DNA of 64,000 bases from Rufibacter glacialis (GTDB lineage: Bacteria > Bacteroidota > Bacteroidia > Cytophagales > Hymenobacteraceae). The notes beneath the pieces were generated by a model. That model was not told the DNA's origin. It worked only from the letters and a program-made list of their open reading frames with translations, and did no database searches. Of this stretch, positions 18 to 63,257 are shown piece by piece. Each line of letters opens with the position of its first letter. Position 1 is the stretch's first letter. Position numbers and translations under genes: made by a program. The DNA lies in the NCBI RefSeq assembly GCF_008271745.1, contig NZ_VKKZ01000010.1:310001-374000 (forward strand), in the 5' to 3' direction.

Positions 18-53
18 GTTTTGGGTCTTTTTTATAGAAAACGGGCTAAAAGC
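18..53. repeat. Dispersed palindrome, copy 1
   Basis: T-rich left arm (GTTTTGGG) and A-rich right arm (GGGCTAAAAGC) around a short AT loop. This is a degenerate copy of the palindrome family described in the findings. Its upstream neighbour lies outside the window. No gene is supported in positions 1-304. Confidence 0.5.
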
Positions 54-304
54 TCTTGGGGAAACAAAAGGTAGTAGGTCGCCAGTTATGAGTGTCGTGT
101 CTCCAATTGGAACTTGGGAATACCTCCTAAGCGAAGGGCAGAAGCATTTTCCTACTGCCTTTCTAGTTGGCCCACAAGATCCTTCCAGGATGACAAAAGG
201 GAAGGCGGTGAGCAGATTTTTAGCAGGGAGAATAACTTCCCCATAAAGAGGGCTCGCTTTCCATCAATCAGCAACCAACAACCAGCAACTAACAATCAGC
301 AAGC

Positions 305-1192
305 CTACTTCACAGAACTGAACCGGAAAAAGGTACCCAGTGGGAGTTTGCGCTTGGCCTGGTCCTGCAGGTACAACTCGCCAAGTTCCTCATTCTGCAC
401 TGTTTTGCCAAAAGAGGCTTTAATCAGGTTGTCCAGAATCAAGGCAGAGAATCCGAGTGAGTAGAGGTTGATCACGAAGAAGTTGTTCTCAGGATCCAGC
501 AACTGGGAGCAAAGCTTGATGAGCTCGTTGATCTGCTCTTCCAGGAGCCATTTCTCGCCATCGGGGCCGCGGCCGTAGGCGGGAGGGTCCAGGATAATGC
601 CCTGGTATTTGTTTCCGCGTTTGACCTCGCGGCGGGCGTATTTCATGGCGTCTTCCACCAGCCACCGGATGTTATCCAGGTTGCTGGCTTCCATGTTCTG
701 GCGGGCCCAGAAGTTGACCTGCTTCACAGAGTCCAGGTGGGTGACATCAGCGCCGGCGGCGTTGGCGGCTAAGGAAGCCCCCCCGGTATAGGCGAACATG
801 TTCAACACCTTCGGCTTGCCGGGCAGGGCCCGGGTGCGGTCAAAGATGAACTGCCAGTTAGGATCCTGCTCAGGGAACAAGCCCACGTGCTTGAAGGAAG
901 ACAAGCCCAACCGGAACCGCAGCTTCAGGTCGTTGTAGCGGTAGTTGATGAACCACTGCTCGGCCATGCCTTTCTTCAGCTGCCACTGGCCTTTTTCCTG
1001 GTTGCCTTTCTCGCGTTTGAACGTAGCCTGGGCCAGGCGTTCCCACTCACCCTCAGACAGATGTTTGTCCCAGGCAGCCTGGGGCTCAGGGCGGGCCAGT
1101 ACATAGTCTCCAAAGCGCTCCAGCTTCTCAAAGTTGCCGCAGTCTATCAGTTCATAATCGGTCCAGGCGCTGGTGGTCAGGAAAGAGTACAT
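305..1192 (-). CDS. Class I SAM-dependent methyltransferase, RlmI/RlmK-like (COG1092 type)
   Basis: This is a probable rRNA cytosine-type methyltransferase that transfers a methyl group from S-adenosylmethionine. The Rossmann core is visible: a motif I region reading MFAYTGGASLAA, an acidic strand end (THLD) for the SAM ribose, and the motif DPPAYGRGP. The N-terminal part (residues about 1-120) looks like the substrate-binding half of COG1092 proteins. The ATG at 1192 is preferred over a longer 332-residue reading, because the extra N-terminus is low-complexity and would run through the promoter-like TACCTTTG at 1216-1223. Target specificity cannot be told from sequence. It stands alone, divergent from dapF. 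Confidence 0.85.
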   Translation of the reverse strand: MYSFLTTSAWTDYELIDCGNFEKLERFGDYVLARPEPQAAWDKHLSEGEWERLAQATFKREKGNQEKGQWQLKKGMAEQWFINYRYNDLKLRFRLGLSSFKHVGLFPEQDPNWQFIFDRTRALPGKPKVLNMFAYTGGASLAANAAGADVTHLDSVKQVNFWARQNMEASNLDNIRWLVEDAMKYARREVKRGNKYQGIILDPPAYGRGPDGEKWLLEEQINELIKLCSQLLDPENNFFVINLYSLGFSALILDNLIKASFGKTVQNEELGELYLQDQAKRKLPLGTFFRFSSVK

Positions 1193-1215
1193 AGGTGTTG
1201 AGGGTGGTGAAGGGG

Positions 1216-1223
1216 CAAAGGTA
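1216..1223 (-). promoter_or_regulatory. Bacteroidota -7 element (TACCTTTG) for the methyltransferase
   Basis: Perfect match to the TAnnTTTG -7 element on the minus strand, ending 23 bases before the chosen ATG. No well-placed TTG -33 element was seen. Confidence 0.55.
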
Positions 1224-1426
1224 CGGTTTTGTGGCGTGCGGTGGTGCTGTTCTTGCAGGGCTTTGGTGACAGGAGAGGGGCAGAAAAAACAGGAGAGCCC
1301 CATTCCACAGGAAAGGAGTTGGGCCGTGACCGGCGGTGGGGCTCATGCTTAGCCTTCGCTGGTAACGACCTACCCTCTGGCAAGAGGACAAAGGGGAAGG
1401 AATTCGTTGGTCGCTCTGCCCCCTGT

Positions 1427-1461
1427 GTTTAGCCCCTGTTTTTGGGAAATAGCCCCTTAAA
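1427..1461. repeat. Dispersed palindrome, copy 2
   Basis: GTTTAGCCCC on the left and AGCCCCTTAAA on the right around a TTTTTGGGAAA centre. It lies in the 404-base gap between the methyltransferase and dapF, where no gene is supported. Confidence 0.45.
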
Positions 1462-1596
1462 TAGGTTTCAGTACCTGAGCTTCAGGAATGGTTTCAGCGT
1501 ATGAATATAGTACGGCATCACTTTTTTTATTACTTTTCAAGGTTTTTTCAAAGAGAAGAAGCTCGGCTTAGGCAGAACACAGGCGTATATTTCAAG

Positions 1597-2367
1597 ATGA
1601 CTCTAACTTTCTATAAATACCAGGGCACCGGCAATGACTTTGTGGTGCTTGATAACCGGGCTCAAGCTATTGCGCTCAGCCAGGAACAGGTAGCCTTTCT
1701 GTGCGACCGCCGCAATGGGGTAGGAGCAGACGGGCTCATGCTGCTGCAAAACAAAGAAGGCTATGACTTTGAGATGGTCTACTACAACGCAGACGGCAGG
1801 CCCAGCTCTATGTGCGGCAACGGCGGCCGGTGTCTGGTGGCGTTTGCGCAGTTTATGGGAGTGGTAGAGAACCAAGCCTATTTCATTGCCGCCGATGGTC
1901 CGCACCAGGCTTTCCTGAAAGACGGATTGGTGCACCTGCAGATGAAGGACGTAGACGCGGTAGAAGCCCTGGAAGGAGCCACTTTCCTGGATACCGGCTC
2001 GCCCCACTACGTGAAGCAGGTAGAGGCACTGCAGGATTTGAACGTGTTTGCCGAAGGCCGTGCCATCCGCTACTCTGACCGCTTCAAGGCCGAGGGAACC
2101 AACGTGAACTTCGTGGAGCATCTGCCAGAGAATAAGTTGTCTGTGCGTACCTATGAACGGGGCGTGGAAGATGAGACGTTTTCCTGCGGCACCGGGGTCA
2201 CGGCCTGTGCCCTGGCCGCCAACCGGGCCGGGTATGAAAGCCCAATTTCTATTCAGGTGCTGGGGGGCGAGCTGCAGGTAAGCTTTGAGAAGGCAGGAGA
2301 AGGCTTCCGGAACATCTACCTGATTGGCCCGGCCCAGCAAGTGTTCAAAGGAGAGATCAGCCTTTAG
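1597..2367 (+). CDS. dapF: Diaminopimelate epimerase
   Basis: Interconverts LL- and meso-2,6-diaminopimelate in the cytosolic lysine and peptidoglycan precursor pathway, without a cofactor. The two catalytic cysteines are visible: Cys73 in SMCGNGGRC and Cys197 in SCGTGVTA, each in the glycine-rich loop typical of the family. The N-terminal YQGTGNDF motif is also typical. A longer frame opens at 1501, but its first 32 residues are not conserved in type, and the ATG at 1597 gives a normal length of 256 residues. The downstream glycosyltransferase is 69 bases away, so co-transcription is possible. Confidence 0.95.
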   Translation: MTLTFYKYQGTGNDFVVLDNRAQAIALSQEQVAFLCDRRNGVGADGLMLLQNKEGYDFEMVYYNADGRPSSMCGNGGRCLVAFAQFMGVVENQAYFIAADGPHQAFLKDGLVHLQMKDVDAVEALEGATFLDTGSPHYVKQVEALQDLNVFAEGRAIRYSDRFKAEGTNVNFVEHLPENKLSVRTYERGVEDETFSCGTGVTACALAANRAGYESPISIQVLGGELQVSFEKAGEGFRNIYLIGPAQQVFKGEISL

Positions 2368-2436
2368 TTAGCAGATCAACCTCCTCCGAAAAACTCCCCT
2401 TGTTCTTAATTAAATTGAACCCAAATAATTCACTGA

Positions 2437-3252: not shown

Positions 3253-3560
3253 AGACAACGGTCCCGCCTTTGTTGCGGGTTAGCTAGCGGAAAGATGCAG
3301 AAGAGGGGTAGCGTTCAAAGTGGGACGGCCGCCTAGTCGCTAGAATGATAAGGCCATCCTTTTGTGAATTTCCCCTAAAGTGGCCGCGCTAAAATAAAAG
3401 GAAAACGTGCTCTTGATCCAATTTTTTACTTGATTTGCTGATGGCCGTTTAACCCTTGTTTGCTAAAAAGAAGCCAAAAAACGAGGGGTACTTTTTAAGT
3501 GTCTTGAGAAAAGGAAGCTGGTTTTCTTTCTCTTAAGTCCTTGTTATCATCTTCCTGCCC
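3253..3560. other. Intergenic gap, no gene seen
   Basis: 308 bases with no convincing reading frame, RNA gene or strong hairpin. A T-rich stretch at 3490-3540 precedes the acetyltransferase but has no clear TAnnTTTG element. Confidence 0.5.
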
Positions 3561-6992: not shown

Positions 6993-9228
6993 GCTTTGGG
7001 GAGGCGTTGAGTGTACTGTAAACCGGGTAGGTGAGGAGTACTTTGACCAGCTTGCACAGAGCGGGCATGCAAACCGGCTTTCAGACCTGGATCTGTTCGC
7101 TGAGTTAGGCATCAAAAAAATTCGGTACCCGGTGCTATGGGAAAGCGTTGCCCCAGAACACCCGGAACAACAAGACTGGACCTGGGCGACAGAACGCCTG
7201 AACCGGCTCCGGGAACTGAACATAGACCCAATCGTGGGGCTGCTGCATCATGGCAGCGGCCCCCGATATACCCACCTCTTAGACGAGGACTTCCCTCAGA
7301 AACTGGCGCAATACGCCCGTGGGGTGGCCCAGCAGTTTCCGTGGGTCAACCACTATACTCCCATCAATGAACCCCTTACTACGGCTCGGTTCAGCGCATT
7401 ATACGGCTTCTGGTATCCACACACCCAAGATGATGCTTCCTTTGCAACAGCTTTACTAAACCAAATCAAAGGCACCAAGCTGGCCATGCAGGCCATCAGG
7501 GAGATAAACCCCCAGGCCAAACTGGTGCAGACCGATGACCTGGGCTACTCCCACAGCACACCGGCGTTGCAGTACCAGGCAGATTTTGAGAACCACCGGC
7601 GGTGGCTCTCCTGGGATCTGCTCTGTGGCAAAGTAGACCAGCAGCATCCGCTGTGGGGCTACCTGCGCCGGGTGGGCGTGTCAGAGGAAACCCTGCTGGA
7701 ACTGGTGCAGGACCCATGTCCGCCAGACATCATAGGGGTGAACTACTACGTCACCAGCGAGCGCTACCTAGATGAGCGCATCATTGACTACCCCTGGCAT
7801 ACCCACGGCAGCAACGCCTGGCATAGGTACGCAGATGTAGAGGCCGTGCGCGTGCAAGCGGCTACGCCGCTGGGCGTGCAGAACATCCTGGAACAGGTGT
7901 GCGCGCGCTATGACCTTCCGGTGGTCATCACCGAGGCCCATCTCTGCTGTACCCGTGAAGAACAGATGCGGTGGCTCGCCGATGTGTGGGATTCTGCCTC
8001 TTTTCTGCGGAAACAGGGCAAAAACGTGCTGGCGGTCACCGCCTGGTCTCTTCTTGGGGCCTATGACTGGAATAGCCTGCTTACCAGAAACGCCGGGCAT
8101 TATGAAATGGGCGCCTTTGACCTGAAAGGCGGCCAGCCCGCACGCACCGCGGTCTCTGATTTTCTGAAAGGGCTACCCCTTGAGGCAGAACGGCATCCGG
8201 TGCTCAAGGTAGATGGCTGGTGGAAACGCGTTTGCCGCAGTATTTACACCAATATGCCAGAAGAGCCAGAGAACTGGAGCCAGGCCGGTAATGAGCAGAT
8301 GCTGCCCCATGACCTGGCCATTGAACCCTTGTTGATAACCGGGGCCACGGGTACCCTGGGTCGGGCCTTTGCCCGCCTCTGTGATACCCGCGGCATTCCG
8401 TATGTCTTGCTCACCCGTCAGGACCTGGACATTGCAGACGCCGCCTCGGTAGAGAAAGCTCTTCAGAAATACCGGCCCTGGGCACTGGTGAACACCGCCG
8501 GCTTTGTGCGGGTAGATGCCGCCGAGGAAGAAGCAGAAGCCTGTTACAGAGAGAATACCCACGGCCCGGCGGTTTTGGCGAAAGCCTGTCAGGCGCACGG
8601 GGTAGGGTTTGTGACCTTTTCCTCAGACCTGGTGTTTGATGGCGAGAAAATGGAACCTTACCTGGAGGAAGACCAGCCCCAGCCCCTCAACGTGTACGGC
8701 CGCAGTAAGACCCAGGCCGAGGAGCAGGTGTTGGCCGCAATGCCGCAAGCCCTGGTGATCAGAACCAGTGCTTTCTTCGGTCCCTGGGATGAGCACAACT
8801 TTGTATACCATGCCCTGCGGGCGATAGCGCACCAGGAGCCTTTCAAAGCCGCCGAGGACAGTTTCATTACGCCTACCTATGTGCCAGATCTGGTGAATAT
8901 GGCCTTGGACCTGCTCATTGACGGCGAAAGCGGCATCTGGCACCTGGCAAATACGGGCGCTTATAGCTGGGCTCAATTGGCAGAACTGGCCGCTAACCTG
9001 GCCGGGCTTGACCCGGCACCATGGTTGCAACCGGTACCCATGGCTAGCTTTAAACAACCTGCCGCCCGACCCGTTTATTCTGCCCTGGAAACTGGCAAAC
9101 GGGGCATTCTGCCTTCGGTGGAAGATGCTTTGCGCCGGTACCTGCACGCGTGTGAGTTCAACTTCAGGCCTGTCCAGACAGACCTCCATTCTACCGAAGG
9201 CGAAATTCGCTTTGCCGCGCAAGCATAA
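6979..9228 (+). CDS. GH1 family glycosidase fused to RmlD-like sugar-nucleotide reductase
   Basis: A two-domain fusion of 749 residues. Residues about 1-420 form a family 1 glycoside hydrolase (TIM barrel). The acid/base Glu131 sits in TPINEPLTT, and the probable nucleophile Glu319 is in VITEAH, where ordinary GH1 enzymes have ITENG. Residues about 450-740 form an extended SDR domain of the dTDP-4-dehydrorhamnose reductase type, with GATGTLG at 455-461 and catalytic Tyr573/Lys577 in YGRSK. The start overlaps glf by 14 bases. A role in trimming, transfer or modification of a galactofuranose-type glycan is inferred; no signal peptide is seen, so it should act in the cytoplasm. Confidence 0.85.
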   Translation: MANIELWGGVECTVNRVGEEYFDQLAQSGHANRLSDLDLFAELGIKKIRYPVLWESVAPEHPEQQDWTWATERLNRLRELNIDPIVGLLHHGSGPRYTHLLDEDFPQKLAQYARGVAQQFPWVNHYTPINEPLTTARFSALYGFWYPHTQDDASFATALLNQIKGTKLAMQAIREINPQAKLVQTDDLGYSHSTPALQYQADFENHRRWLSWDLLCGKVDQQHPLWGYLRRVGVSEETLLELVQDPCPPDIIGVNYYVTSERYLDERIIDYPWHTHGSNAWHRYADVEAVRVQAATPLGVQNILEQVCARYDLPVVITEAHLCCTREEQMRWLADVWDSASFLRKQGKNVLAVTAWSLLGAYDWNSLLTRNAGHYEMGAFDLKGGQPARTAVSDFLKGLPLEAERHPVLKVDGWWKRVCRSIYTNMPEEPENWSQAGNEQMLPHDLAIEPLLITGATGTLGRAFARLCDTRGIPYVLLTRQDLDIADAASVEKALQKYRPWALVNTAGFVRVDAAEEEAEACYRENTHGPAVLAKACQAHGVGFVTFSSDLVFDGEKMEPYLEEDQPQPLNVYGRSKTQAEEQVLAAMPQALVIRTSAFFGPWDEHNFVYHALRAIAHQEPFKAAEDSFITPTYVPDLVNMALDLLIDGESGIWHLANTGAYSWAQLAELAANLAGLDPAPWLQPVPMASFKQPAARPVYSALETGKRGILPSVEDALRRYLHACEFNFRPVQTDLHSTEGEIRFAAQA

Positions 9229-9245
9229 GGTTCTTCCTTCTAAAA

Positions 9246-9287
9246 GCCGCTTTGGGTCTGTTTTTTATAAAACAGCCCCAAAGCGGC
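9246..9287 (+). terminator. Strong hairpin terminator after the GH1 fusion gene; palindrome copy 3
   Basis: GCCGCTTTGGG at 9246-9256 pairs perfectly with 9277-9287. An inner CTGTTTT/AAAACAG stem adds to it, and TTTTT follows. It starts 17 bases after the stop codon. Its core matches the dispersed palindrome family. Confidence 0.85.
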
Positions 9288-9417
9288 TTTTTCTTTTCTG
9301 TTACCTGGTGCCAGCCTGCTAAGTGTTCAGGTAGCCCAATGCCTCTGGGTGGGTACTCTGGCGGGTCACAGACTTAGGTAAGAAGTGCAGCTTTGTCCTT
9401 TGTGCCGGTAAGAATCT

Positions 9418-9454
9418 GTTTGCGAGGTATTTTTGCTAAAATAAGCCTCAAACG
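9418..9454. repeat. Dispersed palindrome, copy 4
   Basis: GTTTGCGAGG on the left and AAGCCTCAAAC on the right around TATTTTTGCTAAAATA. It lies in the 398-base gap between the GH1 fusion gene and secA, about 130 bases before the secA promoter. Confidence 0.55.
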
Positions 9455-14280: not shown

Positions 14281-14326
14281 CCGCCGTTTCTGCCCTTGTT
14301 TTAGCTAAACTGGCCAGAAACGGCGG
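14281..14326. repeat. Dispersed palindrome, copy 5 (probable terminator)
   Basis: CCGCCGTTTCTG and CAGAAACGGCGG form a perfect 12-bp outer stem, with GTTTTAGCTAAAC in the centre. It lies 55 bases after the lipoprotein stop and before the amidohydrolase promoter. It could end the secA transcript. Confidence 0.7.
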
Positions 14327-15599: not shown

Positions 15600-15654
15600 A
15601 GAGGCCCTGGATTCTGCCCTGTTTTCTGAAAACAGGGCAGAATCCAGGGCCTCT
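15600..15654. terminator. Perfect 26-bp stem between convergent genes; palindrome copy 6
   Basis: Positions 15600-15625 are fully complementary to 15629-15654, with a CTG loop. The core is CCTGTTTT-CTG-AAAACAGG, the best-formed copy in the window. It starts 15 bases after the amidohydrolase stop and ends 23 bases from the porin stop, so it can serve both strands. Confidence 0.85.
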
Positions 15655-17872: not shown

Positions 17873-19369
17873 ATGAGAACGAAACAGTTTATGTTGGGGC
17901 TTCTGCTTTCTGCCATGATGGGTGGAGGCGTGGCCGTTGGTGGTTATAAACTGCTGGAAGATGACGCGCCCGCCGCCGGGCAGCAATCGCCTAATACCAA
18001 TGTACGGTACACCAGCGCCATGCGCAGCTCAGACGTGGTGGTGCCTGAAGGCTTGAATTTTGTCACTTCCGCAGAGCTGGTTACCCCGGCTGTAGTCCAC
18101 GTGACCACTGAGTACAAAGTACAGGCCCGTAGAAGCCCGAGCGCCAGTGAGATCCATCCTTTTTTCCGTGATTTCTTCGGAGATGAATTTGAAGGCTACC
18201 AACGGCAGCAGGGCCCGGCCATGGGGTCAGGTTCCGGGGTGATCATTGCCTCCAACGGATATGTGGTGACCAACAACCACGTGATTGACCGCGCAGACAA
18301 AATCCAGGTGATCCTGGATGACAAGCGGACGTATGATGCCACCCTGGTAGGCACCGACCCTAACACAGACATCGCGCTGCTGAAGATCAACGCTGACAAC
18401 CTGCCGGCTTTGCGCTACGGCAACTCAGACAAGGTGCGCGTAGGAGAGTGGGTATTGGCCGTGGGCAACCCGTTCAACCTGAATTCAACCGTAACCGCGG
18501 GTATCGTGAGTGCGAAAGGCCGTAACGTAGGTATCTTGCAAGGCGCCGGCAACATGAGCGTGGAGTCTTTCATTCAGACCGATGCGGCCGTGAACCCTGG
18601 TAACAGCGGCGGCGCTCTGGTGAACCTGAACGGGGACTTGATTGGGATCAACACCGCCATTGCCTCACAGACCGGTTCTTTTGCCGGTTACTCTTTCGCG
18701 GTGCCGTCTTCCATTGTAAGCAAAGTAGTGGATGACCTTATCAAGTTTGGGGAAGTGCAGCGTGCTTTGCTTGGTGTGCAGATGCAGGAAGTAAATGCTG
18801 ACTTAGCCAAGGAGAAAAACCTTAAAACCTTGAATGGGGTGTACGTGGCCGGCTTCTCTGAGAGCAGTGCCGCCAAAACCGCCGGGTTGCAGGAAGGTGA
18901 CGTGATCACAGAGATCAACGGCGTGAAAGTGAACACCAGCGCGCAGTTGCAGGAGCAGGTAACCCGTTACCGTCCTGGTGACAAGATCAAGGTGAACTTC
19001 ATGCGCGGCGGCAGCGAGAAAAACATCAACGTTACCCTGCGCAACGCCAACGGAAGCACTGAATTAGTGAAGCGTGACCCTAACTCGGCTAAGTCCATGA
19101 CCATTGACGGGGCTAAATTTGAAGCCGCCAGCAAGCAGGAACTGAACAAACTGGAACTGACCGGCGGGGTGAAGATCACAGGGGTGGAGAAAAGCGCTTT
19201 CGCTGAGACCGGCATGAAAGATGGCTTCATCATCACCAGCATTGACAAGACCCCTACCAATGCGCCCCAAGACGTAGACAAAGTACTCAAAAGCACGCGC
19301 CGCGGCGGCCTTCTCATTGAGGGGGTTTACCCAGACGGCCGCAGAGCTTACTATGCCATGGGCCGTTAA
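17873..19369 (+). CDS. Do-like periplasmic serine protease, HtrA/DegP family
   Basis: Periplasmic protease-chaperone for misfolded envelope proteins. An N-terminal signal or anchor segment (FMLGLLLSAMMGGGVAVGG) is followed by a trypsin-like domain with the catalytic triad His136 (VVTNNHVID), Asp166 (NTDIALL) and Ser245 (NPGNSGGA). Two PDZ domains follow: the first, around residues 290-395, contains GVYVAGFSESSAAKTAGLQEGDVI; the second, degenerate, ends the protein. The 498 residues match DegP-type proteins. It is transcribed on its own, with a terminator after it. Confidence 0.95.
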   Translation: MRTKQFMLGLLLSAMMGGGVAVGGYKLLEDDAPAAGQQSPNTNVRYTSAMRSSDVVVPEGLNFVTSAELVTPAVVHVTTEYKVQARRSPSASEIHPFFRDFFGDEFEGYQRQQGPAMGSGSGVIIASNGYVVTNNHVIDRADKIQVILDDKRTYDATLVGTDPNTDIALLKINADNLPALRYGNSDKVRVGEWVLAVGNPFNLNSTVTAGIVSAKGRNVGILQGAGNMSVESFIQTDAAVNPGNSGGALVNLNGDLIGINTAIASQTGSFAGYSFAVPSSIVSKVVDDLIKFGEVQRALLGVQMQEVNADLAKEKNLKTLNGVYVAGFSESSAAKTAGLQEGDVITEINGVKVNTSAQLQEQVTRYRPGDKIKVNFMRGGSEKNINVTLRNANGSTELVKRDPNSAKSMTIDGAKFEAASKQELNKLELTGGVKITGVEKSAFAETGMKDGFIITSIDKTPTNAPQDVDKVLKSTRRGGLLIEGVYPDGRRAYYAMGR

Positions 19370-19408
19370 GGAGGTGTTTTTGCCAAAACGCAGCTAAAAC
19401 CGCTTTCT

Positions 19409-19440
19409 AAAAGCCTCTGCCGCAGGGCAGAGGCTTTTTT
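19409..19440 (+). terminator. Terminator after htrA-type gene
   Basis: AAAAGCCTCTGCC pairs with GGCAGAGGCTTTT and a T tract follows. A degenerate half of the dispersed palindrome (CAAAACGCAGCTAAAACCG) lies between the stop codon and this hairpin. Confidence 0.85.
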
Positions 19441-21133: not shown

Positions 21134-21183
21134 AAAAACAAAGCAGCCTTGCCGTTTCACAGCGGTAAGGCTGCTTTGTTTTT
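21134..21183 (+). terminator. Long hairpin terminator after the aldehyde dehydrogenase gene
   Basis: A 21-base arm at 21134-21154 pairs with 21163-21183 (AAAACAAAGCAGCCTTGCCG side), with a short loop and T-rich end. It lies 70 bases after the stop. Confidence 0.85.
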
Positions 21184-21213
21184 AGCCCGATTTTCTAAAA
21201 AAGCCCGTTAAAC
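21179..21213. repeat. Dispersed palindrome, copy 7
   Basis: GTTTTTAGCCCG and GCCCGTTAAAC around ATTTTCTAAAAAA. It is directly fused to the preceding terminator, sharing its last bases. No gene is seen in the remaining gap to 21480. Confidence 0.5.
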
Positions 21214-25244: not shown

Positions 25245-25352
25245 ACAAGCAAAGCTTCCAGAGAATCTAAGAGCGGACCCGCAAAGGCCCGCTTCTTTTT
25301 TGCCCCGTTTTTACCTTAATTTGGAGAAACAGGGCTAAAACAGGATCACTAC

Positions 25353-25781: not shown

Positions 25782-25824
25782 CCGTTTCAGGCCTGTTTAA
25801 GTAAAAGTAGGCCCAGAACTACGG
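25782..25824. repeat. Dispersed palindrome, copy 8
   Basis: CCGTTTCAGGCCTGTTT on the left, AAAAGTAGGCCCAGAACTACGG on the right. It begins 4 bases after the ridA-family stop codon. The rest of the gap to 26122 holds no visible gene. Confidence 0.6.
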
Positions 25825-26122
25825 TTGTGTACTTTTTCAAATCGCCGGTTATGCGCCTTAGGAGGGAAATCTCTGCCCAAGGCAATAATTTGGACGCAAT
25901 GGCCTTTTATCGGTAGGAGTCTGTTTTAAGGGTGTTTTCCAAAAAATGACTTAAAGCTGCCTGAACCTTTGGTGAGCCGGAGCCAGGCTACTGCTATTAG
26001 GAGTTCTGTGGATAGAAGTGGTAATTGCAATCGTTCCGGACCTAGTGGCCTTACTGGGCGCAAACCCGATGGCTTCTGCGGCTTGCCGCCCAGGAACCTA
26101 ATTCTGACGTACGCTTTTTTGA

Positions 26123-30631: not shown

Positions 30632-30684
30632 CAGAAAGGCGTTGAGGGTTGGTTTCTCAGAAACAAGCCTTAAACGCCTTTCTG
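30632..30684. terminator. Hairpin after the esterase gene; palindrome copy 10
   Basis: CAGAAAGGCGTT at 30632-30643 pairs perfectly with AACGCCTTTCTG at 30673-30684. The inner part (GGTTTCTCAGAAACAAGCC) carries the family core. It lies 23 bases after the stop. Confidence 0.75.
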
Positions 30685-32175: not shown

Positions 32176-32217
32176 GTAGTTCCTGTGCTACTGCCCTGCC
32201 ACTAATTCTATCCATGG

Positions 32218-32246
32218 AGAGGCCTGCTAACTGCAGGCCTCTTTTC
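32218..32246 (+). terminator. Terminator after ndh
   Basis: AGAGGCCTGC pairs with GCAGGCCTCT around a 5-base loop, followed by TTTTC. It starts 43 bases after the stop. Confidence 0.8.
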
Positions 32247-32985: not shown

Positions 32986-33163
32986 GCCAAGCAGGTCAAC
33001 CTGACCTAGAAAAAACCACGGTATCTATATATCCCTTATTTAGTCAAATCTATTCTTTTCCAAAAAGTTATAGATAATGGGCTAGGCGACATAGTTTGCC
33101 ATCGCTTGGGTGGCTTTCTTCCAGACGCAACCCATTGATTGAATCAAACCATGAATCTAAAAG

Positions 33164-33197
33164 AAAAGCCCCCGCTGTAGTAACAGCGGGGGCTTTT
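33164..33197 (-). terminator. Terminator of the rplM-rpsI-rpsB-tsf operon
   Basis: AAAAGCCCCCGCTGT pairs with ACAGCGGGGGCTTTT around a short loop, 28 bases beyond the tsf stop on the minus strand. Confidence 0.88.
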
Positions 33198-33224
33198 GCA
33201 TAGAACCGTTGGGTTCAGAGGAGA

Positions 33225-34058: not shown

Positions 34059-34143
34059 TGTTCTTTTATTAAGAATTACGGTTAATAAGTTTCAATAGGA
34101 GGGTGGTGCTGCTTTGGCAAGCCGGCACCGGTAAGAGTAAAAA

Positions 34144-34185
34144 GAAACTGAACATCAGTGGCTAGGCTTCCTAATGTTCAGTTTC
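34144..34185 (-). promoter_or_regulatory. Inverted repeat between rpsB and tsf
   Basis: GAAACTGAACAT (34144-34155) and ATGTTCAGTTTC (34174-34185) are perfect 12-bp arms with an 18-base loop. It lies in the 157-base gap of the operon. It could be a partial terminator or a processing site that lowers tsf relative to rpsB. Confidence 0.55.
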
Positions 34186-34215
34186 CTTTAAGATAATCTT
34201 ATGAGACAAAGAGGC

Positions 34216-34977
34216 TTATTCAGCGTCAATTTTCTCCTGGATGCCTTCTTCTTCTGAACGCTTCTTCTCGGTCTCGTCTTTGTCTACTTTACGCTCAGAC
34301 AAACCTTCTTCAATGGCTTTGCCAATCAAAGAAGTGATCAGAGAGATAGACTTAGAAGCATCATCGTTGGCCGGGATTGGGAAGTCCACCAGCTCTGGGT
34401 TAGAGTTGGTATCTACAATCGCGAATACCGGCAAGTTCAGTTTCTGTGCTTCTTTGATAGCGATAGACTCACGCTTCACGTCTACAATGAACAAAGCAGC
34501 AGGAAGACGTGACAAGTCAGCGATACCACCCAACACACGGTCAAGTTTCTCACGCTCACGAGACAGCATCAAACGCTCACGCTTTGCCATGGCGGCATAG
34601 GCAGTGTTCTCTTTCACCATTTTGTCAATGGTAGACATTTTCTTCAAAGACTTACGAACCGTCTGGAAGTTAGTCAACATACCACCTAACCAACGGTCGG
34701 TCACGTAAGGCATCTTCAGGCGCTTGGCCTCTTCTGCTACTATGTCCTGGGCTTGTTTTTTGGTAGCGACAAACAAAATCTTGCGGCCAGACTTAGCAAT
34801 CTGCTTAATAGCGGAGATTGCCTCATCCAGGGAAACCAAGGTTTTGTTCAGGTCAATGATGTGGATACCGTTTTTCTCCATGAAAATGTACGGAGCCATT
34901 TTAGGATCCCATTTTCTGGTAAGGTGACCAAAGTGTACACCGGCGTCCAGTAATTCTTTATATGTGGTATTAGCCAT
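34216..34977 (-). CDS. rpsB: Small ribosomal subunit protein uS2
   Basis: Assembly-late protein of the 30S subunit, needed to bind bS1. The opening motif [23 protein letters not shown] and the later [33 protein letters not shown] are diagnostic. The 253 residues include a charged C-terminal tail ([12 protein letters not shown] type). It follows rpsI by 24 bases. Confidence 0.97.
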   Translation of the reverse strand: [253 protein letters not shown]

Positions 34978-35001
34978 GATATTGATACAGCTGATGATAT
35001 A

Positions 35002-35388
35002 TTAACGTTTAGAGAACTGGAAAGAACGACGGGCTTTGCGCTTACCGAACTTCTTACGCTCCACCATACGGGGGTCACGCGTTAAGAATCCTTCTTTTTT
35101 CAGGGCTGGACGGGTCTCAGCGTTTTCTTCCACCAAAGCTTTGGTGATGGCCAAACGAAGGGCTTCTGCCTGACCGGCAACGCCACCGCCTTTGATATTC
35201 GCCTTGATGTCGTATTTGCCAACCGCGTCAATCAGCGACAATGGCTGCTGAACGATGGTTTGCAATACTTCACTAGGGAAGTATTCCTTAATATCTCTAT
35301 CGTTAATAGTGATATTCCCTTGCCCTGACGTCATGTAGATGCGCGCCACCGAGGTTTTTCTTCTACCAGATGTATTGAGAATTTCCAT
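35002..35388 (-). CDS. rpsI: Small ribosomal subunit protein uS9
   Basis: 30S head protein whose C-terminal tail reaches the P-site tRNA. The TSGRRKTSVARIYMTSGQGNITINDRDIKEYF opening and the basic end KKFGKRKARRSFQFSKR are diagnostic. The 128 residues are standard. It follows rplM by 14 bases in the same operon. Confidence 0.97.
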   Translation of the reverse strand: MEILNTSGRRKTSVARIYMTSGQGNITINDRDIKEYFPSEVLQTIVQQPLSLIDAVGKYDIKANIKGGGVAGQAEALRLAITKALVEENAETRPALKKEGFLTRDPRMVERKKFGKRKARRSFQFSKR

Positions 35389-35402
35389 TAAATATGACTA
35401 GG

Positions 35403-35852
35403 TTATTTTGTAAGTTTTACTGTAACAGGCTGTTGTGCCTCATGTGGATGCTCTGCACCGGTGTACACGAACAGGTTGCGGAATTGCTCACGGCCCAAAC
35501 GGGTTCTTGGCAACATACCGCGTACCGCGCGCTCAACCAACAGAGTAGAAGACTTGGCCTTCAACTCCCGGGGAGTGAACGTGCGCTGACCACCTGGGTA
35601 ACCAGTGTGCGTCACGAAGGTTTTCTTGTCCCACTTCTTACCGGTCATACGCACTTTGTCTGCGTTGATCACGATCACGCTATCACCGCAGTCAGCGTTG
35701 GGCGTGAAAGAAGGTTTGTTCTTGCCGCGAAGAATCATCGCGATCTGGCTGGCCACGCGGCCAAGGGTTGAGTCTCCGGCGTCTATCACTACCCAGCCTT
35801 TGTTTGCGGCCGCCTTATTAACTGATAGCGTCTTATAACTTAAATGGTCCAT
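35403..35852 (-). CDS. rplM: Large ribosomal subunit protein uL13
   Basis: Early-assembly 50S protein. WVVIDAGDSTLGRVASQIAMILRGKNKPSFTPNADCGD and the motif HTGYPGGQR are diagnostic. The 149 residues are normal. It is first in the rplM-rpsI-rpsB-tsf operon and has a well-formed promoter upstream. Confidence 0.97.
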   Translation of the reverse strand: MDHLSYKTLSVNKAAANKGWVVIDAGDSTLGRVASQIAMILRGKNKPSFTPNADCGDSVIVINADKVRMTGKKWDKKTFVTHTGYPGGQRTFTPRELKAKSSTLLVERAVRGMLPRTRLGREQFRNLFVYTGAEHPHEAQQPVTVKLTK

Positions 35853-35906
35853 TGTAAATGGTTAACGAGTGAAAAAATAAAGTATCTCTACTTTGAAAAA
35901 TGGTCA

Positions 35907-35937
35907 CAAAGATAGGGGTATTTTTTCTGTGGTGCAA
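35907..35937 (-). promoter_or_regulatory. Promoter of the rplM operon (TTG, 20 bp, TATCTTTG)
   Basis: On the minus strand a TTG (35937-35935) and TATCTTTG (35914-35907) are separated by exactly 20 bases, a perfect Bacteroidota -33/-7 pair. The -7 element lies about 55 bases before the rplM start. Confidence 0.8.
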
Positions 35938-36015
35938 CCCGCGTTTATATTATTCCCTTGAAAACAAGGTAAATAGTTAAGGGCGGTAACAAAGGAGGGT
36001 GGCGTTCAAAGGGAA

Positions 36016-36063
36016 AATCCCGTTTCGGGCCTCCTTTCCGGAACGGAAGCCTGAAACGGGATT
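36016..36063. repeat. Dispersed palindrome, copy 11 (probable RluA-gene terminator)
   Basis: AATCCCGTTT and AAACGGGATT form a perfect outer stem. The core GGGCCTCC/GGAAGCCT is close to consensus. It lies about 190 bases beyond the pseudouridine synthase stop. No gene is seen between it and that stop. Confidence 0.65.
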
Positions 36064-36983: not shown

Positions 36984-37042
36984 CTTGGCCTTAAGGCTGT
37001 TTCTGTCCTCCTTTTACGGAAAGAGGAGTTAAACAGGCCAAG
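36984..37042. repeat. Dispersed palindrome, copy 12 (long, upstream of the RluA gene)
   Basis: CTTGGCC pairs with GGCCAAG outside, and CTGTTTCTGTCCTCC with GGAGTTAAACAG inside. It sits just upstream of the start of the pseudouridine synthase gene, so it would be in its leader if transcription starts beyond it. Confidence 0.55.
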
Positions 37043-37090: not shown

Positions 37091-37128
37091 GGTTTCGGGC
37101 TTATTTGCCAAGAACGGACTTTAAACCC
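37091..37128. repeat. Dispersed palindrome, copy 13
   Basis: GGTTTCGGGC and TTTAAACCC around TTATTTGCCAAGAACG. It lies 3 bases past the histidine kinase stop codon. Confidence 0.5.
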
Positions 37129-39016: not shown

Positions 39017-39116
39017 AGGAATAGTTGCTGGTTGTTTATTTTTAAGTAGTTAGGAGAGCAATAGTAACAATTTGTTAACCTGTAGCCCTTTAAAGTAGGC
39101 TGTCTAAAGTTGTTTT

Positions 39117-39150
39117 TGGCTTGTTCCCGGGAAAAGAGGCCCAAAAAGGG
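39117..39150. repeat. Dispersed palindrome, copy 14 (degenerate)
   Basis: TTGGCTTGTTCCCGG and GAAAAGAGGCCCAAAAAGGG; the right side overlaps the arm of the adjoining terminator. Confidence 0.35.
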
Positions 39151-41776: not shown

Positions 41777-42946
41777 ATGTTAAGAAAGTGGCTTTTAGTG
41801 GCAGTAGCAGCCTTGGCGGCGGGATCAGGTGCCTGGGCGCAGGTGAACAACCAAGCCCTTGAATTCAGGCGGCCGGTAAAGCCGGGGCAGGCCGGGGAGC
41901 TGCAACTGGGCCTTAATGCCTTTGGGTACCAGAAGAACAACGAGTACTTCAATGACATCGCCGAAGGTTATACCCTGTTTGGCTACCACCTGAACCCGCG
42001 GCTCATCTATTTCCCCACAGACAAGGTCAGGATAGACGCCGGCGCCCAGGTGCAGAAAGACTTCGGGACCCGCAGTTACTCACTGGTGCAACCTACGTTT
42101 ACCATCCGTTATGAGGAAAACGGCATGGCCCTGCTGTTCGGGACCCTGGAAGGAAACGTGAACCACGGCTATATTGAGCCCCTCTATGACTTTGAGCGCG
42201 TGATCACGAACCGCCTGGAAAACGGCCTCCAGTTCCTGCTGGACAAACCCGGGGCCAAGCTGGACGTCTGGATTGACTGGCAGCGCTACATCCGGCGCCT
42301 GGACCCGTTCCAAGAGGAAGTGGCCGGCGGCGCCTCTGCCGAATTGACGCTTTACCGCACACCCGTTTCTATGGACTTTCCGGAAAACAAGCCCCAAACC
42401 GAAACCTATATTGGGGTACCGCTGCAATTCACGGCCCAGCACCGGGGCGGGCAGATTGATGACACCCAGTTACCCCTGGTGACCTTATCCAACGTGGCGG
42501 CGGGCCTGGTCATCAGGAAGACCTACAACAGAAACGTGTTGAAAGCCCTGCATTTTCAGCCGTACGTGGTGGGCTGGAAAGACTTCTCCAACACCAAGGC
42601 CCAGCCCTTTACCCAGGGCGGCGGTTTGTACCTGAACGCAGGCATAGACACCAAATACCAGAACGTGATGCTGAGCTACTGGCGTGGCAGCGGGTATTAC
42701 TCAGAGTTAGGGGGGCGGCTGTTCCCCTCGGTTTCCTCTAATTTCAAGACGCCAGGGTACACGCAGAAAAACCGGCAGGTACTCATTCTACGCTTTCTGC
42801 ATGACCTGGAGCTGACGCAGGGCCTTTCCCTGACCCTTCGTCTGGAGCCGTACCTTGACCTGGATTTCCCCAAACTGGAATTCTCCAACAGCCTGCACCT
42901 GAACTTCAACTCAGACTTCTTCCTGACCCGCCTTAAAAAGAGATAA
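41777..42946 (+). CDS. Predicted outer-membrane beta-barrel protein, unknown function
   Basis: A 389-residue secreted protein. The signal peptide is MLRKWLLVAVAALAAGSGAWAQ. The rest alternates short polar loops with strands rich in aromatic residues at their ends, for example AELQLGLNAFGYQKNNEYF and VMLSYWRGSGYYSELGG, and it ends with a strand in SLHLNFNSDFFLTR. That is the look of an outer-membrane barrel, but no named porin family is recognised. The ATG at 41777 is used; a TTG 12 bases earlier is possible. Confidence 0.65.
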   Translation: MLRKWLLVAVAALAAGSGAWAQVNNQALEFRRPVKPGQAGELQLGLNAFGYQKNNEYFNDIAEGYTLFGYHLNPRLIYFPTDKVRIDAGAQVQKDFGTRSYSLVQPTFTIRYEENGMALLFGTLEGNVNHGYIEPLYDFERVITNRLENGLQFLLDKPGAKLDVWIDWQRYIRRLDPFQEEVAGGASAELTLYRTPVSMDFPENKPQTETYIGVPLQFTAQHRGGQIDDTQLPLVTLSNVAAGLVIRKTYNRNVLKALHFQPYVVGWKDFSNTKAQPFTQGGGLYLNAGIDTKYQNVMLSYWRGSGYYSELGGRLFPSVSSNFKTPGYTQKNRQVLILRFLHDLELTQGLSLTLRLEPYLDLDFPKLEFSNSLHLNFNSDFFLTRLKKR

Positions 42947-42950: not shown

Positions 42951-42987
42951 GGATTTTAAGCCATTTTTGCCAAACAGGCGCTAAACC
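42951..42987. repeat. Dispersed palindrome, copy 15
   Basis: GGATTTTAAGCC and AAACAGGCGCTAAACCC between the convergent outer-membrane and acetyltransferase genes, starting 5 bases after the first stop. Confidence 0.5.
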
Positions 42988-45830: not shown

Positions 45831-47255
45831 TCAGGCGGTTTGGGTTTTAGGCCCCTTTTCGGGAAAAACGCCCTGAAACGAAGCCAGGAGGTGGGCCGCC
45901 AGTTCCTGGGCCTGCTCCCTGAGTTCGGGCACGGCGTTGGACTCCCACAGTTCCCCGCGCAACGAGGCCCCCAGGGTGAACAGGCCCGGCGTGACGGAGC
46001 CACCTGGCTGCCGTACCTGGTAAAGGCCATCGGTTTCCAAGCCCATGCCCATAGGGTGCGGCGAAATGAGTTTCTGTGCCAGCAGTGACCTAACCAACGG
46101 GTCTGGGATAGCAGCGTAGTTGAGTTGCGGCCCCGTGCAGTTGAGGACCCGGTGCGCCCACCGCGTCTCTGTTCCCCTGCTGGTTTTCACCTGTACCTGC
46201 ACCCCCGTCTCATGCGACGTTACTGCCTCTATCTGGCCCGGTACAATCTCCAAGATCCCTTCTGCGATGGCTTCCTGGATTCTTTGGTGCACCTGGGGCG
46301 GGAGCCGGTGCCGTACGACTGCCCAGAGAGACCCCAGCTTCTTGCTGAACCTGATCTTGTCTGCGCAGGAAAAGCGCTTCCAGAGGTCCTGGGTCTGAGA
46401 CCGCAGGCCATTGACCAGGTTTTCCCAGTGGCCGGGTTCTGCCTGGCGCAGGTGGGTTTTGAAGTGCCGCAGTACCTCCAGCAGCGTGGTAGCCTGGGCC
46501 ACCCGGGCGCTGAAGGCAAGGTCAGGCACGGGTGTTTGGTACGGGAAAGGAAGGTAGCCATTGGTGGAGACCGCCGTGATCTTTCCGGTGAAGTTCTGGG
46601 TGAGCAGGGCCAGGATGATGTCAATGCTGGTGAGCCCGGTGCCAATCAGGAGAAGGGTAGGCGCCGGGGGCAGGTTTTGCCAGGCTTCTGGTTTCCAGGG
46701 ATTGGCTTCGTACAGATGCGGGGGTAGGGGCGGGGCGGCCGCCACACAGCGGAGGGGAGCGGGTAAAAAATTGCCCAGGGCCAATACCACCTGATCTGCT
46801 GAAACGGTTTCGCCGGTCTTGAGCCGGAGGTGAAACGGACGTTGAGCGCCGGGAGTATGCCGCAGGTCCTCTACCCGCTGCTCTACCACCTGGCAGGTGC
46901 TTTTGCCGGCGGGGCGGGCAATGGCCTGGGAGAGGAGCTGGTGCAGGTACCGGCCATACAATTGACGGGGCATGAACGAAACCGCCAGTTCCTCAGGCGT
47001 ATGCCCGGCATAAGCGGGTTCCTGCAAAAGCCACTCCACAAAATGGTTGGGTTCGTCTGGCAAGGCGCTCATGCGGCCTGCGTGCACATTGAGCAGGAAG
47101 GTATCTTGGTCAGCGGAGTAGGCGATTCCTTTTCCGGTAGGATACCCTTCATTGAGCAGCACCACCTCTACCTGGCACTGCTGCTGCCTGAGCAAATGCA
47201 CGGCTACCATGGTGCCGCTGAACCCTCCTCCAATAATCGCGATGACGTGCCGCAT
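45831..47255 (-). CDS. FAD/NAD(P)-binding protein (YdhS-like)
   Basis: A 474-residue flavoprotein-like oxidoreductase of the PF13454 type. The dinucleotide motif AIIGGGFSGTMVAVHLL is at residues about 6-22, followed by LNVHAGRMSALPDEPNHFVEWL, which is characteristic. A second nucleotide motif (LLIGTGLTSIDIILALL) is near residue 206. Reaction unknown. The last 13 or so codons coincide with a copy of the dispersed palindrome, so the C-terminal tail is probably not conserved in function. Confidence 0.82.
   Translation of the reverse strand: MRHVIAIIGGGFSGTMVAVHLLRQQQCQVEVVLLNEGYPTGKGIAYSADQDTFLLNVHAGRMSALPDEPNHFVEWLLQEPAYAGHTPEELAVSFMPRQLYGRYLHQLLSQAIARPAGKSTCQVVEQRVEDLRHTPGAQRPFHLRLKTGETVSADQVVLALGNFLPAPLRCVAAAPPLPPHLYEANPWKPEAWQNLPPAPTLLLIGTGLTSIDIILALLTQNFTGKITAVSTNGYLPFPYQTPVPDLAFSARVAQATTLLEVLRHFKTHLRQAEPGHWENLVNGLRSQTQDLWKRFSCADKIRFSKKLGSLWAVVRHRLPPQVHQRIQEAIAEGILEIVPGQIEAVTSHETGVQVQVKTSRGTETRWAHRVLNCTGPQLNYAAIPDPLVRSLLAQKLISPHPMGMGLETDGLYQVRQPGGSVTPGLFTLGASLRGELWESNAVPELREQAQELAAHLLASFQGVFPEKGPKTQTA
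45844..45879. repeat. Dispersed palindrome, copy 16, inside the coding sequence
   Basis: GTTTTAGGCCCC and CGCCCTGAAAC around TTTTCGGGAAAAA. It provides the C-terminal codons (SFQGVFPEKGPKT) of the FAD protein. Confidence 0.6.
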
Positions 47256-47363: not shown

Positions 47364-47401
47364 GTTTCAGGCCTTTCTTCCTGAAAACAGGTCTTAAACG
47401 C
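47364..47401. repeat. Dispersed palindrome, copy 17 (after MoxR gene)
   Basis: GTTTCAGGCCTTTC and GAAAACAGGTCTTAAACG, touching the MoxR stop codon. A probable 3' end of the PpiC-SurA-MoxR transcript. Confidence 0.6.
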
Positions 47402-52259: not shown

Positions 52260-52299
52260 CCGTTTCAGGCATCTTTTGCACAAAACAGGCCTGAAACGG
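52260..52299. repeat. Dispersed palindrome, copy 18 (near-consensus)
   Basis: CCGTTTCAGGC and GCCTGAAACGG pair at the ends, with ATCTTTTGCACAAAACAG in the middle. It lies 35 bases past the RsbW-like gene stop on the minus strand, so it is a likely 3' end of that operon. Confidence 0.7.
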
Positions 52300-57116: not shown

Positions 57117-57284
57117 GTATGGTATTTGCCACGTAAAGTTAAGGGAAAAATTGAAAAACCTATAGTTTCTGGGGTATTTATAGAAAATCAGCCTTGTAAC
57201 GGGAGCAGGGCTTTGGGTTTATCTTAGGCTGGCAAGCTTGTATTTTTTCGGGAGCCAACCGTTTACAGTTGCTGACAGAATTCG

Positions 57285-57481: not shown

Positions 57482-57780
57482 CCTTTCCATAGTTGCCCTC
57501 CGAGCGCTCACGGCCGCGAGGCCCCGTCTTCCCCTCTCGCACTGCCCTTTCGGCCTGTACTGTCCTTTTCTTTTAGTAATCGTCTATCTAGGGCCAAAAG
57601 CGAGGCGCGCTCGGGAAAGACTGGAACAGGGGAAAGTCGCATAGACCCTGAGGAGAACCCTGTAGAGACAATGGCACCGCCTTGTCTCCCACGCATTGCT
57701 TGTCTCCAACCGCCCCATAACGCCCGCTCAAAAGGCCTCGTAGTGTGCGCAGCTCCTACGAGTGTCTGAGCTCATGTCAA

Positions 57781-57814
57781 TTCAGGGCTGTTTTCAGCAA
57801 AACAGAACCAAAGC
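57781..57814. repeat. Dispersed palindrome, copy 19
   Basis: TTCAGGGCTGTTTTCAGC on the left and AAAACAGAACCAAAGC on the right. It lies 8 bases past the rhodanese stop codon on the minus strand. Confidence 0.55.
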
Positions 57815-58237: not shown

Positions 58238-58285
58238 TTCGCTGTTTCAGGGGCCTATTTTTAAAAAGCCCGCCAAAACAGCGAA
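58238..58285. repeat. Dispersed palindrome, copy 20, in the pnuC leader
   Basis: TTCGCTGTTT pairs with AAACAGCGAA, inner parts GGGGCC and GGCGGGC-like are weaker. It ends 18 bases before the pnuC ATG, so it may form a leader hairpin. Confidence 0.6.
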
Positions 58286-58303
58286 GGCGGCAATTTCTTT
58301 TCT

Positions 58304-61267: not shown

Positions 61268-61300
61268 CCCGCCTTAAATTCTGTACCTTGCCCGCAGATT

Positions 61301-61341
61301 CCCGTTTGGGGGCCGTTTCTTGAAAACAGGCCTGGAACGGG
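61301..61341. repeat. Dispersed palindrome, copy 21
   Basis: CCCGTTT pairs with GAACGGG; the inner core GCCGTTTCTTGAAAACAGGC is close to consensus. It lies 33 bases past the DUF2490 stop and abuts the next gene. Confidence 0.65.
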
Positions 61342-61878: not shown

Positions 61879-61887
61879 CCTCCTCTC

Positions 61888-62769: not shown

Positions 62770-62770
62770 C

Positions 62771-62810
62771 CCGTTTAGGGACTGATTTTCTGAAAACCCG
62801 CCTCAAACGG
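62771..62810. repeat. Dispersed palindrome, copy 22
   Basis: CCGTTTAGGG and CGCCTCAAACGG around GATTTTCTGAAAAC. It begins 1 base after the epimerase stop codon. Confidence 0.6.
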
Positions 62811-62884
62811 TTCTTGCCCATGGAAAACGGCTCCAAAACAGAGCCGGTGCTGGACTCGCAAACCCTTCGGGCGTTGAAGCGGGT

Positions 62885-62915
62885 TTGTATAGCATGGCAA
62901 ATGAAAGTAGCTTTG
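62885..62915 (+). promoter_or_regulatory. Promoter (TTG, 20 bp, TAGCTTTG) for the PhnA-domain gene
   Basis: TTG at 62885-62887 and TAGCTTTG at 62908-62915 are 20 bases apart. They precede the ATG at 62965 by about 50 bases. Confidence 0.7.
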
Positions 62916-62964
62916 TGGCCTGCCCATCGGTTTTTGGGCTCTTTTTACCAACAAGCCCATACCC

Positions 62965-63174
62965 ATGGAAGTAAAAGATAGCAACGGTACCCTGCTCGGC
63001 GAGGGCGACAATGTCACGGTGATCAAAGACCTGAAAGTGAAAGGCTCCTCTACCACCATCAAAAGAGGCACGGTGGTCAAAAAAATAAGACTCACTGATG
63101 ACGCCGAAGAAATTGAAGGCCGTGTAGAACGAACCGTGATGGTCTTGAAAACCTGCTTCCTGAAAAAAGTATAG
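62965..63174 (+). CDS. PhnA-like domain protein (zinc ribbon absent)
   Basis: A 69-residue protein matching the C-terminal domain of PhnA (VKDSNGTLLGEGDNVTVIKDLKVKGSSTTIKRGTVVKKIRL). The N-terminal zinc-ribbon half of full PhnA (about 110 residues) is absent here. Despite the historical name, phosphonate catabolism is not implied. It has its own promoter and a terminator after it. Confidence 0.85.
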   Translation: MEVKDSNGTLLGEGDNVTVIKDLKVKGSSTTIKRGTVVKKIRLTDDAEEIEGRVERTVMVLKTCFLKKV

Positions 63175-63180
63175 ATCAAC

Positions 63181-63212
63181 ACAAGAAAGGCGCCCTGGGG
63201 CGCCTTTCTTGT
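63181..63212 (+). terminator. Terminator after the PhnA-like gene
   Basis: ACAAGAAAGGCGCC pairs perfectly with GGCGCCTTTCTTGT, 7 bases beyond the stop. Confidence 0.85.
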
Positions 63213-63220
63213 GTTCAGTG

Positions 63221-63257
63221 GTTTTGAGCCTTTTTTCTGTAAAGCAGACCTAAAGCG
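63221..63257. repeat. Dispersed palindrome, copy 23 (degenerate)
   Basis: GTTTTGAGCC and AAAGCAGACCTAAAGC around TTTTTTCTGT. It lies 9 bases past the beta-lactamase-like gene stop on the minus strand. Confidence 0.4.

Follow-up and report, generated by a model that had tools for sequence, protein, structure and literature searches.

Extragenic palindromes of bacteria are usually explained as hairpins, as terminators or as relics of RAYT transposons, and the enterobacterial palindromic units treated by Gilson and others in 1987 reportedly lie in the same gaps of related species, with a sequence typical of each species. Here we describe a dispersed, dyad-symmetric element of ~36 bp that recurs throughout a stretch of 64,000 nucleotides from Rufibacter glacialis, family Hymenobacteraceae (contig NZ_VKKZ01000010.1, positions 310,001 to 374,000; hereafter the window). 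Among described systems, the repetitive extragenic palindromic (REP) sequences that go with RAYT genes are, in the parts of the source used here, intergenic palindromes of 20–40 bp with up to thousands of copies, some families being species-specific, that lie past coding regions, for the most part in tandem and convergent gaps (PMC3733652). The DNA uptake sequences (DUS) of Neisseriaceae, again according to the portions of the account drawn on, are 10-12-mers with clade-specific dialects, thousands of copies, common intragenic copies and inverted pairs linked to terminators (PMC3630211).

The element resembles REPs that carry a GTAG/CGTC tag in its size, copy number and intergenic place past genes, as far as those excerpts describe them. 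However, it is symmetric and untagged, it lacks linkage to RAYT genes, its places are common to the genus, and its letters are constrained without pairing. With DUS, to the same extent, it shares species dialects, a high copy number and a terminator-linked subset, but its dialect words lie almost only within the 36-bp dyad (in the genome designated G013), whereas DUS also occur inside genes. Like the bidirectional intrinsic terminators of Hymenobacteraceae, whose AAAAGCC..GGCTTTT palindromes coexist with the element in its genus, some copies combine long GC stems with T-runs past stop codons; the T-rich stem side of the element is instead the 5′ one, adjoining the loop, and a T-run is missing from most copies. 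Our preferred reading, to which we assign a probability of roughly 0.43, is that the element serves at gene ends as a dimeric DNA-binding site peculiar to the genus, which would be read by a putative protein.

Copies, density and distribution

The consensus is GTTTnnRGSCTGTTTT, followed by 3–5 bases and then the reverse complement. By scoring 24 consensus letters over the two 16-base arms with a centre of 3–5, we found 31 copies in the window at a threshold of at least 18 matches, against none for the reversed consensus and three for swapped arms. A looser first scan (at least 17) had returned 39 copies, with four reversed and nine arm-swapped matches and one in a single third-order Markov sequence. 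Long palindromes sought blindly numbered 15, compared with 0 in each of three dinucleotide-resampled sequences. Thus the family of dispersed palindromes proposed in an earlier note on this DNA is real: all eight places named there hold sequences as described, far above chance frequency in both window and genome, and the spacing of one copy per 2.1 kb is near the 2.8 kb claimed. The core of GGCCT given in that note was too tight, since the actual core is looser, and the copy at 15600–15654 has GATTCTGCCC instead. An Rfam scan yielded 0 matches at the gathering score.

A strict pattern, GTTTNNGGNCNNNTTT-N2..7-AAANNNGNCNNNAAAC, matched the 5.3 Mb genome of the window at 43 forward and 48 reverse places (reversed control 0), and a contiguous 400 kb of the same genome held 171 copies at the threshold of 18 (reversed 5, swapped 7). 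Extrapolation gives a genome total of ~1,100 copies by a dialect-neutral count (21.4 per 100 kb) or ~2,000 by a looser, control-corrected count. The suggestion that there would be well over a thousand copies is thereby backed by sampling of the 400 kb rather than by a full count.

Among 59 related genomes, the strict pattern was present in all 16 of the genus (24–832 matches per strand, control 0) and in 0 of the 43 family and order members outside it. Across 395 genomes of the class it matched only the source genome and one other, in which a single match lay on one strand. Trained on 72 copies, six of them from the window, a covariance model gave at least 107 matches in each of the 16 genus genomes, and 1–4 matches at an E-value of 0.1 or better in 10 of the 43 outside it. 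The family is therefore restricted to the genus, as the suspected lineage specificity had implied. Two genomes of the same family but other genera, G022 and G035, have four and two covariance-model matches (best E 5.8e-7 and 2.0e-5), which may reflect chance, transfer or remnants. Among the named relatives found, Pontibacter fetidus, also of the Hymenobacteraceae, is the nearest (SecA 79%); 23 kb of this species and 80 kb from each of five other Hymenobacteraceae genera contained no copy reaching 18 matches. A dialect-neutral criterion, whose letters are free of species spelling, was applied to 20–421 kb per genome and gave 18–42 copies per 100 kb in all 16 species (reversed control 0), or about one copy per 2.4–5.5 kb of sampled DNA. 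We found no description of the family among the papers listed in searches of open-licence literature on palindromic or REP repeats, including those of Rufibacter, Hymenobacter and Bacteroidetes.

Place beside genes and constraint on letters

The relation to genes was examined over 1.91 Mb from the 16 genomes, comprising 567 copies, with our own codon-usage gene calls and gaps of at least 50 bases. The element occupies 94 of 165 convergent gaps, 289 of 727 tandem gaps and 47 of 176 divergent gaps. Its edges peak at 5–9 and 20–29 nt past stop codons, with no peak before starts, which bears out the link to gene 3′ ends that had been suspected.

These places are kept across species. In the gap upstream of secA, a copy lies 20–27 nt past the preceding stop codon in 16 of 16 species; in the window this is a hairpin-type copy with a T-rich tail at 9242..9291 (core 9249-9284; 22/24 letters, 15/16 pairs; folding z −8.95), 20 nt past the stop. 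A second copy of that gap (9418..9453; 21/24, 12/16), 209 nt upstream of the secA start, recurs at ~199–212 nt in most species, G007 and G014 excepted. The copy at 14286..14321 (20/24, 11/16; flanks CCGCC/GGCGG), which lies past a gene ending at 14225 and within an over-long call of an open reading frame (ORF), has counterparts in all 14 other species whose stretch covers the gap, and the badly paired copy over a stop codon downstream of secA (19365..19400; 18/24, 10/16) is aligned in all 15 species covering that place. Some gaps of the secA region are empty: the r2-r3 gap has no copy (at least 17) in four species, and the r8-r9 gap has none in G005. Between G004 and G015, the closest species pair (87.6% identity), 73 of the 82 copies in one species and 73 of the 80 in the other had a match in the equivalent region of the partner, an upper bound because any match of at least 17 within ~580 bases counted as present. 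The comparison with orthologous gaps of sister species proposed in the earlier note thus shows that copies keep their places beside orthologous genes.

To measure constraint, sites were located in G003, G011 and G009, and identity was determined between G004 and G015. It was 0.905 in the TTT/AAA blocks, 0.837 over all consensus positions, 0.743 at variable positions and 0.733 in intergenic flanks. These values derive from 109 site rows, in which the same place may recur from several outgroups and from which failed alignments were dropped uncounted. An estimate of consensus retention of 0.902, for which the sites had been chosen in one member of the compared pair, is biased and is superseded by this third-species test. 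Block identity was the same whatever the pairing, at 0.904 in copies with at most 10 pairs and 0.905 in the rest. Because the letters are kept with or without arm pairing, selection or drive appears to act mainly on the dyad as a DNA motif and not on the fold. When tandem-gap copies were oriented by gene direction, the profile was symmetric, only one of 110 position tests reaching p<0.01. Such symmetry regardless of gene direction argues for a DNA site of a symmetric protein, since the unpaired letters of an RNA signal would not need to be symmetric. Constraint on letters that is independent of both structure and gene direction is as expected for the site of a sequence-specific chromosomal protein.

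Measures of the fold itself agree for the source species. When the arms were re-dealt 200 times in its own genome, only position 5 (0.51 versus a mean of 0.31) and position 6 (0.40 versus 0.27) showed more pairing than every shuffle, and arm complementarity is mostly the consensus meeting itself. Structure adds ~1.5 bits to a model of ~36 bits and 44 positions (0.843 versus 0.809 bits per position); at E-values, themselves rough, of ~0.01 or better, a sequence-only model recovers 28–29 window places and the structured model 24. Forty-five of 171 own-genome copies fold at z < −3 and 102 give no signal (z > −1.65); the corresponding counts in G004 are 23 and 66 of 108. The proposal that arms differ among copies while staying complementary therefore holds for the examples originally cited but not for most copies, and selection on the fold fits a hairpin subset only, badly paired copies being equally conserved.

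The letters constrained with or without arm pairing form four A/T blocks (GTTT, TTT, AAA and AAAC), ~12, 7 and 12 bp apart; if the preferred reading is correct, these would be read as DNA by a symmetric protein. This putative dimeric or tetrameric, genus-specific protein would sit at gene 3′ ends, where it could form a two-sided roadblock, an insulator or a chromosome-organising site. Co-evolution of protein and site, or copying between sites, would then create species dialects, and a subset 19–34 nt past the stop codon, extended into hairpins, may also terminate transcription.

Several observations weigh against this reading. Most copies in G013 fold (z < −3 in 55 of 89, no signal in 21), as do about half of those in G006 (32 of 61, with 17 lacking signal). 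Double-change cells across species number 161 versus 87 in shuffles, a figure to which dialects contribute, and between G004 and G015 there are 62 double changes at paired positions versus 52 expected, 26 of them still pairing. Palindromes extending into the flanks occur in 39 of 97 copies with at least 15 core pairs versus 5 of 259 with at most 11, summed over genomes (random centres 0.2%). Core pairing of at least 15/16 is reached by 21–43% of copies in the six dialect-bearing species versus 0–25% in the other ten. Moreover, shifts of spelling across a thousand copies are easier to achieve by copying or drive than by selection site by site, and the reader protein is only putative. Since fold z-scores, covariation and flank palindromes split the copies, there are two kinds, a hairpin subset and non-folding dyads.

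Dialects, copying, termination and uptake

The spelling of the middle of the arms varies between species while the position beside orthologous genes stays. The commonest spellings are GTTTAGGGGCTGTTTT in G005, GTTTTGGGCCTGTTTT in G006 and GTTTTCGGGCTCATTT in G013, and the sisters G007 and G014 share GTTTTTGGCCTGTTTT. With letter matrices built elsewhere in each genome (G002 was left out for want of a second sample), 35 of 90 copies of the secA region fit the matrix of their own genome best of 15, compared with 6 expected, and 0 of 1000 label permutations reached this number. Six species, G005, G006, G013, G007, G014 and G001, account for most of the effect, so that dialects are clear in six of the 16; the source species of the window and eight others show it weakly or not at all. 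The spelling of the own genome is found at orthologous places in 8 of 8 cases in G005, 5 of 5 in G006, 7 of 8 in G013 and 5 of 5 in G007. In 200 kb of G013, where copies are near-identical, the 10-mer TCGGGCTCAT was observed 64 times versus 1.6 expected. Solitary half-sites are nearly absent from the same DNA: all 64 occurrences of that word lie inside dyads, as do all but one for most of the other dialect words listed, and the 10-mers listed for G006 also lie mostly in elements. The spelling between the four blocks is thus homogenised within some species.

Such homogenisation is what would be expected of a REP-like, self-copying palindrome, an explanation that we regard as rather doubtful overall. 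An unknown transposase, or gene conversion, would overwrite copies in place, so that old positions carry refreshed spelling, and no function would be needed. High copy number, intergenic location and relative rarity in divergent gaps agree with this, as do the near-identical G013 copies, the recurrence of each genome's own spelling beside orthologous genes in G005, G006, G013 and G007, and the greater share of near-perfect palindromes in dialect-bearing species. The element also has the REP trait of short, high-copy intergenic palindromes enriched past genes, though only some copies are perfect palindromes. Sixteen copies are not shared between G004 and G015. A homologous region was available for nine of these and eight were inspected; one (G015 53870) is an indel of ~100 bases that contains the element, but no clean, element-sized gap was seen among the eight, only ~3 of which have two-sided homology. 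Constraint on the A/T blocks of badly paired copies also speaks against copying as the whole explanation. Copying accounts for the dialects better than a protein-read site does, but not for that constraint, and both may act together.

A REP- or MITE-like (miniature inverted-repeat transposable element) nature, one of the possibilities raised originally, is therefore borne out as to a REP-like distribution, whereas the expected tag and the linkage to RAYT genes are lacking. Tandem-gap profiles from five genomes, including six flanking bases, contain no GTAG/CGTC tag. Genes of the RAYT type (Y1_Tnp, PF01797) are found in 15 of the 16 genus genomes, the exception, G007, nevertheless having the element. 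A draw of 31 family genomes yielded them in 27, among which each of the five element-free genera is represented. At 20 Y1_Tnp loci, where the predicted linkage to a transposase of the TnpA-REP type was sought, element copies are scattered and do not bracket the gene, and L160, L166 and L170 have none. Eleven of 15 Y1_Tnp genes tested share other 14-mers upstream and downstream, and none of those listed (up to three per locus) is the element motif. A RAYT-driven REP as the present driver is ruled out by the differing distribution of PF01797, the lack of bracketing copies and the sharing of other repeats by RAYT genes.

A different palindrome, GGACAGGTCGCGACCTGTCC, with GTAG or CTAC as a frequent neighbour, surrounds a RAYT-like gene in G013 (L168) and occurs at 19 places in the examined DNA, some in overlapping loci (L168, L140, L133, L012, L220 and others); it looks like a true GTAG REP of the genus. 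Another short repeat family, consisting of clustered and mostly intergenic units AGTTCTGAGT / AGTCCTGAGT, is present in a 400 kb sample of G000:C10 (L018-L037), the first unit at 18 places. BLAST searches of plasmids and phages returned nothing convincing. Four stretches were found in IMG/VR, of which one (L176; UViG 2839759663_000002, 1275-1310), on a predicted viral contig that is possibly a prophage of the element genus, matched on both strands. In G013, a stretch of ~18.6 kb (G013:C1:1068090-1086752, L136-L137) has 36% GC, many small ORFs on nearly always one strand and no gene called by the codon model; it holds element pairs 73–75 bp apart and is perhaps a cassette array or an acquired island.

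Less likely still is that the element is a lineage-specific transcription terminator or an mRNA 3′-end hairpin, although one class of copies has features of this kind. T-runs accompany 0.45 of the copies 19–34 nt past stops (n=107), for which flank pairing is 4.5 of 8, but 0.11 of those at 3–12 nt (n=96), against a baseline of 0.13; the fractions are 0.29 at −6 to 2 nt (n=21) and 0.20 at 35–120 nt (n=127). (The T content just past the extended stem was too crude a measure, because extension swallows T-runs, and the T-run measure was used instead.) The peaks past stop codons, the raised value at −6 to 2 nt and the secA-gap copy, which in almost every species has a hairpin and, judged by eye, a tail rich in T, favour termination. 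In contrast, the copy at 19365..19400 lies directly ahead of a separate, ordinary intrinsic terminator outside the family (19409..19438, plus strand) that is kept in all 15 species covering the place. Long palindromes, many of ordinary terminator form, number 10–17.5 per 100 kb in five further genera of the family, and the element genus has both these and palindromes with a T apex, 13–28 per 100 kb in all (three species). Most own-genome copies do not fold, and divergent gaps, too, are occupied. Because T-runs are at baseline in the 3–12 nt class, a separate terminator is kept behind one conserved copy and ordinary palindromes are shared by the genera, we conclude that this lineage does not use the family as its terminator; a stable hairpin followed by a U-run is found in a subset and not in the family as a whole. 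The earlier proposal of a terminator thus survives only for the 19–34 nt class, with its clear T-run excess, and a general terminating role is ruled out.

A signal for DNA uptake or identity in natural transformation, maintained through recombination and a bias in uptake, would by analogy fit the species dialects (one shared by G007 and G014), the similar density genus-wide, the constraint on letters rather than fold and the terminator-like subset, but it is very improbable: dialect words hardly occur alone in G013, unlike DUS in the parts of their description used here, which rules out an uptake word made of half-sites in that genome.

Individual copies and what the family would mean

The copies of the window illustrate both kinds of element; brackets again give consensus letters and core pairs. 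A perfect 25-bp palindrome with a drifted core lies at 15601..15653, flanked on either side by convergent genes (20/24, 16/16; z −11.12). Hairpin-type copies other than that of the secA gap lie at 30632..30684, past a stop codon (18/24, 12/16; palindrome score 16), 36016..36063 (20/24, 13/16; z −5.32) and 52260..52299 (23/24, 14/16; z −5.61). The sole window match to the strict pattern, which at 45844..45879 overlaps an ORF call at its 3′ end, shows little fold (22/24, 12/16; z −0.55), and no fold is evident at 39112..39147 (20/24, 10/16; z +0.78), at 63221..63256 in a convergent gap, 9 nt past a stop codon (21/24, 10/16; z +1.08), or in the imperfect arms at 18..53 (21/24, 10/16; z −1.07).

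Many of the other copies closely follow stop codons. One lies 1 nt past the stop of a minus-strand gene (47364..47399; 22/24, 12/16) and another 3 nt past a stop (62773..62808; 21/24, 10/16; z −0.49). Three are 5 nt past, at 25784..25819 (21/24, 10/16), at 37092..37126, which is badly paired (19/24, 7/16), and at 42952..42986 in a convergent gap (18/24, 7/16). Distances of 8 and 36 nt apply to 57779..57814 (20/24, 10/16; z −0.85) and 61304..61338 (21/24, 10/16), respectively. Divergent gaps hold 1427..1461 (19/24, 9/16) and 58244..58279 (18/24, 11/16). Additional dyads are located at 3447..3481 (18/24, 9/16), 21178..21212 (badly paired; 19/24, 7/16), 25307..25341 (18/24, 10/16), 25923..25957 (19/24, 11/16), 36999..37034 (19/24, 11/16), 57165..57200 (19/24, 9/16) and 62930..62964 (weak right arm; 20/24, 10/16). 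Weak copies within called genes, at 391..425 (19/24, 9/16), 7989..8025 (19/24, 9/16) and 42365..42399 (18/24, 7/16), may be due to chance. The GC fraction of the window is 0.44 at 32001-36000 versus 0.52–0.57 in the other 4-kb segments.

With 16 species, the parts of such an element can be separated: conservation follows the letters, at preferred distances past stop codons, and the copies are mostly neither terminators nor RAYT repeats. We tentatively entertain, as a possible though by no means assured description, a genus-specific, genome-wide signal of more than 1,000 four-block dyads per chromosome, read at gene ends, in double-stranded form, by one abundant putative protein, with dialects and homogenisation in place, and distinct from REPs, terminators and uptake words. 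If copying keeps the spelling uniform, the genus would offer a natural system for the concerted evolution of ~1,000 dispersed short sites. If a protein reads the dyad, the whole genus would possess a chromosome-wide signal of gene boundaries, which would be a new class of bacterial signal.

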